64,000 nt of DNA from Alphaproteobacteria bacterium SO-S41 (lineage in GTDB: Bacteria > Pseudomonadota > Alphaproteobacteria > Micropepsales > Micropepsaceae): assembly GCA_019670725.1 (NCBI GenBank), contig AP024629.1, forward strand, positions 2,232,001 through 2,296,000, read 5' to 3'. The stretch's first letter is position 1. Each line of letters starts with the position of its first letter. Below, one piece after another: positions 14,882 through 20,436 of this stretch. The notes beneath the pieces were generated by a model. That model searched no databases and was not told the DNA's origin. It saw only the letters and a program-made list of their open reading frames with translations. The position numbers were made by a program, and so were the translations under genes.

Positions 14882-17134
14882 ATGGCCCGTACCGCAGCAC
14901 CGCCGCCGCCCCCGCCCACCGACGATGTCCGCGACGAGCCGCTCGCTCGGGCGCTCGGCGACCGCTATCTCGCTTATGCGCTGTCCACGATCACGTCGCG
15001 GGCGCTGCCGGATGTGCGCGACGGGCTGAAGCCGGTCCATCGGCGCATCCTCTTCGCCATGAGCCGCCTCGGCCTCAACCCGACCTCGCCGTTCAAGAAG
15101 AGCGCGACCGTGGTCGGCGAGGTGATCGGCAAGTATCACCCGCACGGCGACCAATCGATTTATGACGCCATGGTCCGCCTCGCGCAGGATTTCGCCGCAC
15201 GCTATCCGATCGTCGACGGCCAGGGGAATTTCGGCAGCATCGACGGCGATAACCCCGCCGCCTATCGCTACACCGAAAGCCGTCTTACTGCCGTCGCGAC
15301 CTCGATGGTCGAGGGCCTGGACGAGGACGCGGTCGATTTCCGCGACACCTACAACCAGGAAGGCGAAGAGCCGACGGTCATGCCGGGCGCCTTCCCGAAC
15401 CTGCTCGCCAACGGCGCGGCGGGCATCGCGGTCGGCATGGCGACCTCGATCCCGCCGCACAATGCGGGCGAGATCTGCGACGCGCTGGTCCATCTGATCA
15501 AGACGCCCGCCGCCCGCGACGACACGCTGCTCAACTTCATCAAAGGCCCGGACTTCCCGACCGGCGGCATCATCGTGGAAACCCGCGAGGCGATGGCCGA
15601 GGCCTATCGCACCGGCCGCGGCGGTTTCCGCACGCGGGCGGCCTGGCACAAGGAAGAGGGCTCGCGCGGCTCCTACATCATCGTCGTCGATCAGATCCCC
15701 TATCAGGTCCAGAAGTCGAAGCTGATCGAGCGCGTCGCCGCGCTGCTGCAGGACAAGAAGCTGCCGCTGCTGGAAGACATTCGCGACGAGTCCGCGGAAG
15801 ACATCCGCCTTGTGCTGGAGCCCAAGAGCCGCACGGTCGATCCCGAACTGCTGATGGAGCAGCTCTTCCGCCAGACCGAGCTGGAGAGCCGCTTCCCGCT
15901 CAACCTCAACGTGATCGACGCCGAGGGCGCGCCGCGGGTGATGAGCCTTAAGGAGGCGCTGCAGGCGTTCCTTGATCACCGCCGCGTCGTGCTGCGGCGT
16001 CGCTCCGAGCATCGGCTGGAGCAGATCGCCCGGCGGATGGAGGTGCTGGAAGGCTACCTCGTCGCGTTCCTCAACCTCGACAAGGTGATCAAGATCATCC
16101 GCGAGGAGGACGAGCCCAAGCCCGCGCTGATGCGCGCGTTCAAGATCAACGAGGTCCAGACCGACGCCATCCTCAACATGCGCCTGCGCTCGCTGCGCAA
16201 GCTGGAAGAGATGGAAATCCGCACCGAGCACAAGGGCCTGAAGGACGAGGCCGCCGGGCTGAAGAAGCTGCTCGGCTCCGACGATCTGCAATGGAAGCGG
16301 ATCGGCGAGGAGATCGCCGAGATCAAGGCGAAGTTCGGTCCCAAGACGCCGCTGGGCGCCCGCCGCACGCAGTTCGCAGACGCACCGGCGCTGGACGAGA
16401 TGCCCGAGGAGCATTTCATCGAGCGCGAGCCGATCACCGTCATCTGCTCCGACAAGCTGTGGCTGCGCGCGATGAAGGGCCATGTCGACCGCGGCGCGGA
16501 GATCAAGTTCAAGGAAGGCGATCGGGCGCGCTTCTTCATCCACGCCGAAACCACCGACAAGCTGATCGCCTTCGCCACCAATGGCCGCTTCTACACGCTG
16601 GCCGGCGACAAGCTGCCCGGCGGGCGCGGCATGGGTGAACCGATCCGCCTCGCCATCGACCTGGAGAACGACGCCGATATCGTCGCGCTGTTCGTCCATA
16701 AACCGGGGCGCATGCTGCTGGTCGCCGCCCGCAGCGGCCACGGCTTCCAGGTCGGCGAGGACGAGGTCATCGCCATGACCCGCAAGGGCAAGCAGGTGAT
16801 GAATGTCGAGACCGGCAGCGAGGCCGTCGTCTGCATGACGTCCGAGGGCGATACGATCGCGGTGTCCGGCGACAACCGGAAGGTCGTGATTTTCCCGCTG
16901 TCCGAAGTGCCGATACTGGCCCGCGGGCGCGGCGTCACCTTGCAAAAGTACAAAGACGGACATCTTGCCGACGCAAAGGTGTTTACTCTGAAAGAGGGCC
17001 TGAAGGACTCCAACGGCCGCCTGTGGACTGAGAAGGAGCTTGCGGATTGGCGCGGCGGACGCGCCAATGCAGGCCGACTGGCGCCCAAGGGGTTCCCGAA
17101 GAACAATCGCTTCACCCCGGTGGGAGACTTCTAG
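14882..17134 (+). CDS. parC: DNA topoisomerase IV subunit A
   Basis: ParC is the strand-cleaving subunit of topoisomerase IV, which decatenates daughter chromosomes. The 750-residue product starts with a proline run and enters the family at [20 protein letters not shown]. The active-site tyrosine is in [16 protein letters not shown] near residue 133. The C-terminal beta-pinwheel has degenerate repeats ([39 protein letters not shown]). The length and the lack of a canonical GyrA box favour ParC over GyrA. The start is ATG 14882; a TTG three codons upstream is less likely. ParE is not in the window. Confidence 0.93.
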
Positions 17135-17138
17135 ACGC

Positions 17139-19004
17139 ATGACGGCATCCGGCGGCAAACCGGGCGATGGGAAGGCGATCAAGGCCGCTCTTCGTTCGCT
17201 TGCCGCCGACGAGCGGGAAGGCGTCTACCAGGCCGCGATCGATGCGATCGCCGAGGATGTCTCGTCATCGCCGGACCTCGTGGAGTCGGTGCTCGCCGAA
17301 ACCGCGCCGGAATTCGCCCTCAGCCCCGTCGTCAGCATCGTCGATGAGACCTGGCTCGCCGGGGCGGCGATCCTCGACCAGCGCATCCTCCACGCCGATC
17401 CGGGGCTCGATATCGCGCCGGGCGGTGAGGGTCTCGAAAACCTGCGGCGGCTGGCCGCCCGTGCCGCGCGCGCGCCGCGGGCCTTCGCCATGCTGCGCCT
17501 CGCCGACGGCTCGCTGGCGGTCGCGGTGGCGGCGCGAGGCGAGCAGGCGGCGGCCTGGCCGCTTGGCCCAGAGGTGCGCGCGGCGCTGGGCAATAGCGGC
17601 CGGGCGACGGCGGTGCTGGCCTTCGCACCCGGCAGCGAGGCGGGACTGGAAGGCATCATCGCCAACGCCTTCGGGCTCAATCGCAGCGAAGCGCGGCTGG
17701 GCGCCGTGCTGTTTCGCGGCCTCGGCGTGGACGAGGCGGCGGGCGAGATCGGCATGACGGTCGGCACGGCGCGCAAGACGGCGCGCTCGCTGCTGCGCAA
17801 GACCGGGACGCTGCGCCGGGCCGGCCTCACCGCCCGCATCGCCGAACTGCTGGCGGGCCATTATCTGAGGGTCCGCGACCGGGCCGAGCTGATCCAGGAG
17901 GCGTTCTCGCTGTCGGCGGCGGAGGCGCGGGTCGCCGAAGCGGTGGCGCATGGCCTGACCGTCCGCGAGATCGCCGACCGCCGGCGGGTCAGCGCGCATA
18001 CCGTGCGGACCCAGCTCAATGCCGCGCTGCTGAAGACCGGCATCGCCCGTGCCTCGGATCTCGCCCGCATTCTCGTCAATCTCTGCGCGCTGGTGTCCTG
18101 GACCAGTTGCAGCGAGCCGCAGCGCCAGGACCAGCGCCTGCTGATCGCCGCGACGCGGATGATCCCGGCCGAAGGCACGCGGCGTATCGCGGCGGCCGAT
18201 TACGGTCCGGCCAAGGGTGCGCCGGTGCTCTCGTTCCACCCGGGCCTCAGCTATCGCTGGGTGCGCCGACGGTTGCGCGAGGCGTTCCAGGCGCGGGGGT
18301 TCCGCACCCTCTGCTACGATCGCGCGGGCTGCGGCCTCAGCGATATCGCCGAGGGGAACGTGCTGGACCTGGCGGCGGATGACGCGGCGCGGGTGCTCGA
18401 CCGGTTCCGGGTCGAGCGCACGCGGATCTTCGCCAGCTTCGGCGGCGCGGCGCCCGCGGTCGCCTTCGCGGCGCGGCATCCCGACCGGGTCGCGGAAGCC
18501 GTACTGCTGATGCCGCGCCCGTCACGCTCCATCACCACGCACCCGTCGAGCCTGAAGGGGCTGTGGCACGCCTTCGCCGAGCGGCCGGGCGTCGCCGACA
18601 GTTTCTACAACACGGTTCGCCTGGCGGTGGGGTCGCGGTTCTGGCGGTGGCTGCAGGCGCAGGTCGCGCGCGGCACGCCGGCCGATCGCGCGACCATGCG
18701 GGACGATGCCTATAACGACGAGCGGATCGCCGAGATCTACGCCTCGTTCGCGCGGACGGCACGGGGGACGCTCGACCTCGACCGCGCCTATCGCACGGGC
18801 TGGCCGCGGCCGGAGCGGGTCGGCGGCACGCGGTGGACGATCGTGACGACCGCTGCCTCCCCATCACAGGGCGGCGAGAGCGATGCGGATGCGTGGGGCT
18901 GGCTGCCCGGCCTGCAGCGCGTGGCGCTGCCGCAGGCCGGCCGGTTCGCGATGCACACCCATGCGGACGAGATCGCCGCCTGCTTCGCGCCGCCGGCGTC
19001 CTGA
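17139..19004 (+). CDS. Fusion of two LuxR-type HTH domains to an alpha/beta-hydrolase domain
   Basis: A 621-residue protein of unusual layout. Residues 1-170 are an Ala-rich domain of unknown function. Residues about 178-235 form one LuxR-type HTH (LNRSEARLGAVLFRGLGVDE, then AGEIGMTVGTARKTARSLL). Residues about 257-313 form a second (LSAAEARVAEAVAHGLTVRE, IADRRRVSAHTVRTQL). Residues about 334-616 look like an alpha/beta-hydrolase: an HPGLSYRW loop, LCYDRAGCGLSD, a nucleophile elbow FASFGGAAPA (Ser433, with Ala in place of the first Gly) and late histidines in FAMHTHADE. It may couple sensing of an ester or lactone to transcription, but no ligand can be named. It starts 5 bp after the parC stop. 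Confidence 0.75.
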   Translation: MTASGGKPGDGKAIKAALRSLAADEREGVYQAAIDAIAEDVSSSPDLVESVLAETAPEFALSPVVSIVDETWLAGAAILDQRILHADPGLDIAPGGEGLENLRRLAARAARAPRAFAMLRLADGSLAVAVAARGEQAAAWPLGPEVRAALGNSGRATAVLAFAPGSEAGLEGIIANAFGLNRSEARLGAVLFRGLGVDEAAGEIGMTVGTARKTARSLLRKTGTLRRAGLTARIAELLAGHYLRVRDRAELIQEAFSLSAAEARVAEAVAHGLTVREIADRRRVSAHTVRTQLNAALLKTGIARASDLARILVNLCALVSWTSCSEPQRQDQRLLIAATRMIPAEGTRRIAAADYGPAKGAPVLSFHPGLSYRWVRRRLREAFQARGFRTLCYDRAGCGLSDIAEGNVLDLAADDAARVLDRFRVERTRIFASFGGAAPAVAFAARHPDRVAEAVLLMPRPSRSITTHPSSLKGLWHAFAERPGVADSFYNTVRLAVGSRFWRWLQAQVARGTPADRATMRDDAYNDERIAEIYASFARTARGTLDLDRAYRTGWPRPERVGGTRWTIVTTAASPSQGGESDADAWGWLPGLQRVALPQAGRFAMHTHADEIAACFAPPAS

Positions 19005-19007
19005 GGC

Positions 19008-19766
19008 CTAGGCGGGCGCCCGCGCAACGGTCGCGCCGAGCCGTTCGTAGACCCGAAGCTCCTCAGGCGCGACGTCGCTGGTCGTCAGGATCGTCGCGAT
19101 CGCCGTGACCGGAGCGATGAGGAAGGGTGACGCCGCGCCCAGCTTCTCGGGCGACGCCAGAACGACGGTTTCAGCGGCGGCAGCGATCAGCGCGCGTTTG
19201 ATCGCGGCCTCCTCAGCATCGCCCGTCGTCAGGCCGGTCTCCGGGTGGATGCCCGTAACGCCGAGGAAGAAGAGGTCGGCCCTGATCCGCGCGATCGCCT
19301 CCATCGCCAGTGTGCCCGTCGCGACCATCGAATGGCGGAAGAGGCGGCCGCCGATGAGGATGACCTCCGCGGCGTGATCGGCGAGTTCGGCCGCAACGAG
19401 CGGACTGTGCGTGACCAGCGTCGCGCGCAGCCCCGGATCGATCTGGCGGGCGAGCTGCACCGCCGTCGTGCCGCCGTCGATGAAGGCGACCTGGCCCGAA
19501 CGGATCATCGCCGCCGCCGCGCGGCCGATGGCCGTCTTTTCGGCGGTCGAAACGGCCTGGCGTTTTTCGAGATTCTGGACGGCCGGCGAGGCGGGAAGGG
19601 CGCCGCCATGGACGCGCTGCAGCAGCCCGTCGCGCGCGAGGTCGCGCAGGTCGCGACGGATCGTGTCTTCGGAAATGTCGAGATCGACGGCGACCGACCG
19701 CGCGACGACGCGGCCGTCGCGGCGAAGGATCGAGAGGATGTGTTTCTTGCGCTGCTGCGTCAGCAT
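19008..19766 (-). CDS. DeoR-family transcriptional regulator
   Basis: A 252-residue repressor. The N-terminal winged helix reads VARSVAVDLDISEDTIRRDL then LARDGLLQRVHGGALP, the DeoR signature. The C-terminal DeoRC domain, which binds sugar phosphates, has AFIDGGTTAVQLARQI and FFLGVTGIHPETGLTTGDAE. It is divergent from a Nudix hydrolase gene, and four 10-bp-spaced repeats lie between the two starts. The regulator probably controls both genes from that site. The effector is not identifiable from sequence alone. Confidence 0.9.
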   Translation of the reverse strand: MLTQQRKKHILSILRRDGRVVARSVAVDLDISEDTIRRDLRDLARDGLLQRVHGGALPASPAVQNLEKRQAVSTAEKTAIGRAAAAMIRSGQVAFIDGGTTAVQLARQIDPGLRATLVTHSPLVAAELADHAAEVILIGGRLFRHSMVATGTLAMEAIARIRADLFFLGVTGIHPETGLTTGDAEEAAIKRALIAAAAETVVLASPEKLGAASPFLIAPVTAIATILTTSDVAPEELRVYERLGATVARAPA

Positions 19767-19790
19767 GATTGACTCCGGTCGTGCGCGAAT

Positions 19791-19830
19791 TTACACGATA
19801 AAGAACGATAGTACACGAAATTACACGATC
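19791..19830. promoter_or_regulatory. Four tandem 10-bp repeats, candidate DeoR operator
   Basis: The 40 bases divide into ttacacgata, aagaacgata, gtacacgaaa and ttacacgatc. ACGA recurs at exactly 10-bp intervals (19795, 19805, 19815, 19825), and TACACGA occurs in units 1, 3 and 4. The array ends one base before the ATG of the Nudix gene and lies 25 bp from the DeoR start. Repeats spaced one helical turn apart suggest cooperative binding on one DNA face. Confidence 0.7.
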
Positions 19831-20436
19831 ATGCATGAAATCGCGCTGGCCGACCGGATAAAGATCAAGGAAATCCGCCTTTTGTCGGATGACTGGTACG
19901 TTCTGCGGAAAACGACGTTCGAGTGGCTGCGGGCCGACGGGCGCTGGCAGACGCAGAGCCGCGAGACTTACGACCGCGGCAATGGCGCGACGCTGCTGCC
20001 CTATAACCTTGCCCAGCGGACGGTCGTGCTGACCCGGCAGTTCCGCTACCCCACCTATGCCAACGGCTATGACCGGCTGCTCATCGAGGCGCCGGCGGGC
20101 CTGCTCGACAACGCGGCGCCCGAGGCGCGCATCCGGGCCGAGGTCGAGGAGGAAACCGGCTATCGGCTCGGCGCGGTCAGCAAGATCTTCGAATGCTTCA
20201 TGAGCCCCGGCTCGGTGACCGAGCGGCTGCACTTCTTCGTCGCGCCGTATGACGCGGCGATGCGGGTCGGCCGCGGTGGCGGCGTCGAGGCCGAGGGTGA
20301 AGAGATCGAGGTGCTGGAGCTGCCGTTCGACCGCGCACTGGAAATGGTCGCGACCGGCGCGATCGCCGACGCCAAGACGATCATGCTGCTGCAATACGCG
20401 GCGCTGACCCTGTTCGCGGTCTCTAGCGCGGGTTGA
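19831..20436 (+). CDS. NudK-like Nudix hydrolase
   Basis: A 201-residue Nudix protein resembling GDP-mannose/ADP-ribose pyrophosphatases of the NudK group. The Nudix box is in the region APAGLLDNAAPEAR followed by AEVEEETGY. It differs slightly from the strict pattern because Ala precedes the first catalytic Glu. The segment MSPGSVTERLHFFVAPY is typical of NudK-type enzymes. The start is ATG 19831, immediately after the 10-bp repeat array, so a regulator bound there would block transcription or translation. Its 3' end overlaps the convergent bpt gene by 14 bp. The substrate is inferred only at the nucleoside-diphosphate-sugar level. Confidence 0.85.
   Translation: MHEIALADRIKIKEIRLLSDDWYVLRKTTFEWLRADGRWQTQSRETYDRGNGATLLPYNLAQRTVVLTRQFRYPTYANGYDRLLIEAPAGLLDNAAPEARIRAEVEEETGYRLGAVSKIFECFMSPGSVTERLHFFVAPYDAAMRVGRGGGVEAEGEEIEVLELPFDRALEMVATGAIADAKTIMLLQYAALTLFAVSSAG

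Follow-up and report, generated by a model that had tools for sequence, protein, structure and literature searches.

The 64,000-nucleotide stretch of Alphaproteobacteria bacterium SO-S41 analysed here (the window) carries two divergent genes separated by a gap of 64 bp (19767-19830). The gene on the minus strand (19008-19766) encodes a DeoR-family transcriptional regulator of 252 aa, and the gene on the plus strand (19831-20436) encodes a NudK-like Nudix hydrolase of the YffH/AdpP subfamily, 201 aa in length. Both domains that mark membership of the DeoR family are present in the regulator, namely the N-terminal HTH (PF08220, HTH_DeoR, 8.2e-13, 48.3 bits against a cut-off of 21) and the C-terminal sensor domain (PF00455, DeoRC, 2.5e-40, 138.5 bits against 31.8), and in its own genome the protein finds no match but itself at E<=0.001. 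Every cut-off of the NCBIfam equivalogs GlpR, AgaR, SrlR, UlaR, DeoR, YgbI and YciT was missed, the best score being that of haloarchaeal GlpR (194.2 bits, cut-off 300). The Nudix protein reached the TIGR00052 subfamily (146.8 bits, cut-off 79.55) and missed the NCBIfam NudK equivalog, GDP-mannose pyrophosphatase (210.5 bits, cut-off 234). Against the PDB it matched 1viu (2e-56) and 3o52 (4e-56), with NudK entries among the closest sequences.

Between the two genes, and reaching into nudK, lies a candidate operator array of six 10-bp slots in register (19782-19838, minus strand), with the unit TCRTGYA-N3 when read towards deoR. From 19838 down to 19782 the slots are TCATGCA (19832-19838, 7/7), TCGTGTA (19822-19828, 7/7), TCGTGTA (19812-19818, 7/7), a degenerate TCGTTCT (19802-19808, 5/7), TCGTGTA (19792-19798, 7/7) and TCGCGCA (19782-19788, 6/7), all on the minus strand; five of the six score at least 6/7 against TCRTGYA. 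The first-pass annotation had described four exact repeats of ACGA, phased at 10 bp and touching the start codon of nudK. The period holds, with ACGA starting exactly at 19795, 19805, 19815 and 19825. Exactness applies to this 4-mer in all four copies, but the longer 7-mer TACACGA is exact in three only (19792, 19812 and 19822), and AGAACGA stands at 19802. The repeat count is higher than four, as TGCGCGA at 19782 and TGCATGA at 19832 on the plus strand are also in phase and extend the array to six slots; the sixth overlaps the ATG of nudK (19831-19833), so that the array indeed reaches the start codon. The window contains a single case of a 4-mer in four copies at an exact period of 10, the one in the deoR-nudK gap, and 50 shuffles of the 64-kb window gave a mean of 0.04 such arrays. 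Nowhere else in the own genome (4,443,179 bp) do two TCRTGYA units stand at a spacing of 10 or 20 bp, and the pattern ACACGAW-N3-ACACGAW is likewise confined to the deoR-nudK site.

A sigma-70 consensus scan of 19650-19950 gave no promoter. By eye, a weak candidate nudK promoter can be read with low confidence at 19769-19797 on the plus strand (TTGACT, 17-nt spacer, TACACG), and its second hexamer would fall within the unit at 19792-19798. The single terminator-like site of the scan, at 19846-19823 on the minus strand, was set aside, being near shuffle expectation (mean 0.3).

With the DeoR protein as query, 39 loci were found, 25 of them close (L001-L025, 48-69% identity over the best segment) and 14 distant (L026-L039, 32-37%). 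A class-wide search of 385 genomes, including the own genome, added one further orthologue at E<=1e-45 (L074). Members of the clade come from Pseudomonadota and Actinomycetota, and one contig that carries the clade is labelled Chloroflexi. All 25 close-clade proteins examined carry the motif THSP in the sensor domain (the window, L074 and 23 loci, leaving out L005, which has stops, and L021), whereas 13 of the 14 distant DeoRs sampled have TN[SGA] in its place, L039 being the exception. Since several loci are near-duplicates (L002/L003, L011/L012, L014/L016 and L020-L022), counts over the close loci overstate independence and do not amount to 25 independent trials.

A divergent NudK partner is found in nine of the 25 close loci, eight by blastp clustering and the ninth in L006, where NudK lies inside a fusion. 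In 13 further loci the divergent gene encodes a small protein starting ILIAGPYRSGTGDD or nearly so (AGPYR type; 11 clustered, plus L025 and L012, the latter judged from DNA as the contig cuts the protein), and for L018, L019 and L023 no divergent partner was found in the deoR-upstream region. Besides DeoR and these two partners, no gene cluster exceeded four loci, and clusters of three or four came from related genera. The ORF filter used in the neighbourhood clustering was crude and lost nudK both in the window and in L006, and hence the clusters point only roughly to regulator and partner as the conserved unit.

The units in the regions upstream of deoR keep their phase. Over 130 bp in each of 26 regions (the window and 25 relatives), 57 units were counted on both strands together, and all 29 same-strand pairs within 45 bp were spaced 10, 20, 30 or 40 bp apart, as were all 23 pairs left after removal of the window. 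The remainder of the 25 loci (199,550 bp) served as background and held 74 units with one pair within 45 bp, at a spacing of 24 bp. With the shorter motif TCRTG, 27 of 30 pairs were at multiples of 10; the three off-phase pairs (26-27 bp) involve TCATG in L002, L003 and L008, which is read as the start codon of the partner gene.

Slot scoring over 110 bp found at least two units (at least 6/7) sharing a register in 20 of the 25 loci, versus 38 of 3,889 background stretches, and at least three units in register in none of these stretches. Divided by partner, at least two units in register are present in 9/9 NudK loci, 11/13 loci of AGPYR type and 0/3 without partner. The five loci failing the two-unit test are thus the partnerless L018, L019 and L023 together with L009 and L024, which have variant or single units. 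Because the unit consensus was derived from the same sequences that were later scored, there is some circularity in the slot test, which touches the phase count and L074 to a lesser degree. L074 comes from a separate genome set and has an adjoining NudK gene; its three phased units all score 7/7, and TCGTGTA, as in the window, accounts for two of them. The first-pass annotation had named absence of the array beside a conserved gene pair as one observation that would count against it, and what was found is two or more units in register at every NudK-partner locus, L074 included. In L014, L016, L020-L022 and L025, where the partner is the AGPYRSGTGDD protein, one or two inverted units lie nearer the partner gene, so that the two genes may have separate arrays.

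None of the 14 distant DeoRs had an upstream unit pair; L026 had one lone unit, and in L039 the match begins inside the protein, so that its true upstream region is uncertain. Phase, co-occurrence and the distant DeoRs without array together lend strong support to the earlier proposal that the array is a DeoR operator. On this comparison of sequences, the array is very probably an operator common to nudK and deoR, through which a local DeoR-family repressor controls nudK as well as its own gene. According to this model, DeoR protomers would load adjacent to each other on one helix face, one protomer per 10-bp unit, and the bound protein would mask the start of nudK together with the 64-bp region of the divergent promoters, turning both nudK and deoR off. 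DeoR would then be freed by an effector, for which a phosphorylated sugar or nucleotide tied to NudK activity is the likeliest candidate. Binding by DeoR, cooperativity, repression rather than activation and the identity of the effector are all what we infer, and a nucleotide sugar or sugar phosphate, as was suggested in the first-pass annotation, is a plausible signal.

A DeoR protein that binds the array and activates nudK, or acts as a mixed activator and repressor, is improbable. Activators are known within the DeoR family, and the model of the L-fucose operon activator is among the NCBIfam matches of this protein, below its cut-off. However, the array is placed between the two start codons and up to them, and the arrays of relatives contain a -35-like element. 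Thirteen of the 19 occurrences of CAAG (complement of TTG in the -35 box) in 27 upstream regions fall at one of the ten array phases, which would place the -35 of the partner gene in relatives inside the array. With this position of the array and its internal -35-like element, a bound protein should block polymerase. The CAAG slot typical of relatives is not retained in the window.

That the array serves a different regulator, such as a response regulator of the OmpR type, is less likely still and would be surprising. OmpR-type response regulators also use direct repeats of 10-11 bp, and G010, a genome of the same family as the source genome with no match to this DeoR, has a different array that also fits the pattern of four ACGA. 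This distinct array of about 10 bp period (L072, about 1450-1550) consists of GTAACANNAC/ACGAAACANN repeats; its unit, about GTAACANNAC, differs from that of the window, and with no match to this DeoR in G010 the reading by way of this genome was dropped. Moreover, the TCRTGYA unit travels with the DeoR clade across differing neighbourhoods, and it was not seen beside five sampled nudK genes from genomes without this DeoR (L053-L057). Upstream of these genes, in 200-250 bp scored by eye and by cores, no two CACGA/CATGA cores lie within 45 bp; L055 and L057 have two cores each, 60 and 50 bp apart. All five loci come from a single other genus within the family, and their NudK relatives have 51-61% identity. 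An accidental periodicity of AT-rich intergenic DNA was discarded as scarcely credible. The array region does have a GC-content of 44% versus 66% in the whole window, but among 20,000 dinucleotide shuffles of these 74 bp none contained any 4-mer in four copies at a constant spacing of 8-12 bp, and the array is conserved in the DeoR relatives.

With the array taken as the operator of an autoregulated DeoR repressor, a likely operator and a likely target gene are now assigned to an uncharacterised DeoR clade. One regulator, one enzyme and one array, the genome having shown no second one, comprise a clean test case for the loading of DeoR on phased repeats and for what DeoR proteins sense.

The distribution of the module gives some indication of its origin. 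A search of 36 other genomes from the genus and family, of which some are incomplete, gave no match to this DeoR at E 0.001. In the window, about 3.3 kb between parC and an arginyltransferase gene (17134-20423) hold a LuxR/alpha-beta-hydrolase gene, deoR and nudK. The parC-arginyltransferase gaps of the congeners G001, G002 and G004 are under about 30, 520 and 480 bp, respectively, and the fetched stretches of these three gave no match to the DeoR, NudK or LuxR/hydrolase gene; that of a fourth congener, G003, did not show parC, so that presence of the module there cannot be judged. The extra 3.3 kb or so relative to the three congeners would reflect either insertion in the window genome or loss in the others. 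Relatives of the DeoR protein reach 68% identity in Comamonadaceae, and this, combined with the patchy presence, leads us to favour acquisition of the deoR-nudK module by transfer. Many forks of the DeoR tree are without firm support (10 of 25 inner branches starred). The LuxR/hydrolase gene is itself unusual in pairing a LuxR-type HTH region with an alpha/beta hydrolase domain in one 654-aa open frame (17040-19004, plus strand); the frame overlaps parC, and its real start is probably more internal.

The second kind of partner could be placed by structure. Three members of the AGPYRSGTGDD protein had no Pfam match at E 0.1, and for three members NCBIfam gave nothing at E 1; L011 gave one chance-level NCBIfam match (E 0.09, 11.3 bits versus 349), and the L006 fusion gave matches to its NudK part only. 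No solved relative was found by sequence, the best match being unrelated at E 0.22. The AlphaFold model of the L025 protein has a mean pLDDT of 86.5, and its best structural match is 6evs_A (E 4.7e-4, TM 0.65), the sole match below 0.001; those at higher E include further NDT, DNPH1 and MilB (CMP N-glycosidase) entries. As modelled, the AGPYR-type partner resembles the fold of the nucleoside 2-deoxyribosyltransferase (NDT) superfamily. A search of the own genome, run without a positive control, found no orthologue of this partner.

In Janthinobacterium L006 (2969-3925, minus strand), a NudK-like Nudix domain is followed by an NDT-fold AGPYRSGTGDD domain in one 318-aa frame, adjoining a DeoR of the same clade. 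The exchange of the two partners next to a common regulator, taken with this fusion, suggests that the NudK-like and NDT-fold partners may act in a common pathway on nucleotides. Through a shared regulator and one gene fusion, a NudK-like hydrolase is linked to an NDT-fold protein that lacks annotation. We put forward tentatively, as a possibility with the odds somewhat against it, a horizontally mobile "nucleotide housekeeping" module. In such a module the THSP-type DeoR subclade would sense a nucleotide-derived phosphate, and the array of one unit per turn would control a NudK-like hydrolase or an NDT-fold presumed N-glycosidase (or their fusion), both acting on the same nucleotide.

Direct-repeat operators are known for IolR, GlpR and AgaR. 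According to PMC3870299, the motifs of RhaR, another DeoR-family regulator, in four taxonomic groups are two imperfect direct repeats with a periodicity of 10-11 bp; one RhaR bound a 38-bp fragment with four tandem sites in EMSA, and L-rhamnulose abolished the binding. The single-turn spacing, which the first-pass annotation had called distinctive, is therefore shared with these RhaR motifs. A tandem-repeat operator of this kind has direct repeats of 10-11 bp upstream of both regulator and target, and such repeats are present here with a period of 10. The closest likeness is to RhaR of Chloroflexus aurantiacus, a DeoR-family regulator with 10-11-bp direct repeats and, as that source describes it, with four sites in tandem within 38 bp, upstream of its own gene. 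The unit there is TCGAAA, in contrast to TCRTGYA here, and RhaR controls a rhamnose operon, whereas the present array has up to six slots and adjoins a single NudK-like gene.

UlaR is reported to be tetrameric on DNA, AgaR to form tetramers and DeoR an octamer, as cited in PMC10991401; with the RhaR tandem operator, these oligomers indicate that the architecture of the array is of a known kind. This DeoR has its two-domain architecture in common with enterobacterial UlaR, AgaR, SrlR and GlpR, but it lies under every equivalog cut-off. Similarly, the Nudix protein, as predicted from its sequence, belongs to the same YffH/AdpP subfamily as NudK, but it falls below the equivalog cut-off and is paired with a DeoR of its own. 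The SorC-family DeoR/CggR of Bacillus (PMC11229326) belong to a different family. Among the papers listed from the open-licence PMC literature, none dealt with a DeoR-NudK pair or with the TCRTGYA motif, which is no proof of absence, and the DeoR-NudK pairing looks undescribed. Thus, the architecture is already known from other DeoR-family systems, and the new part is the unit sequence, the DeoR clade and the NudK target.
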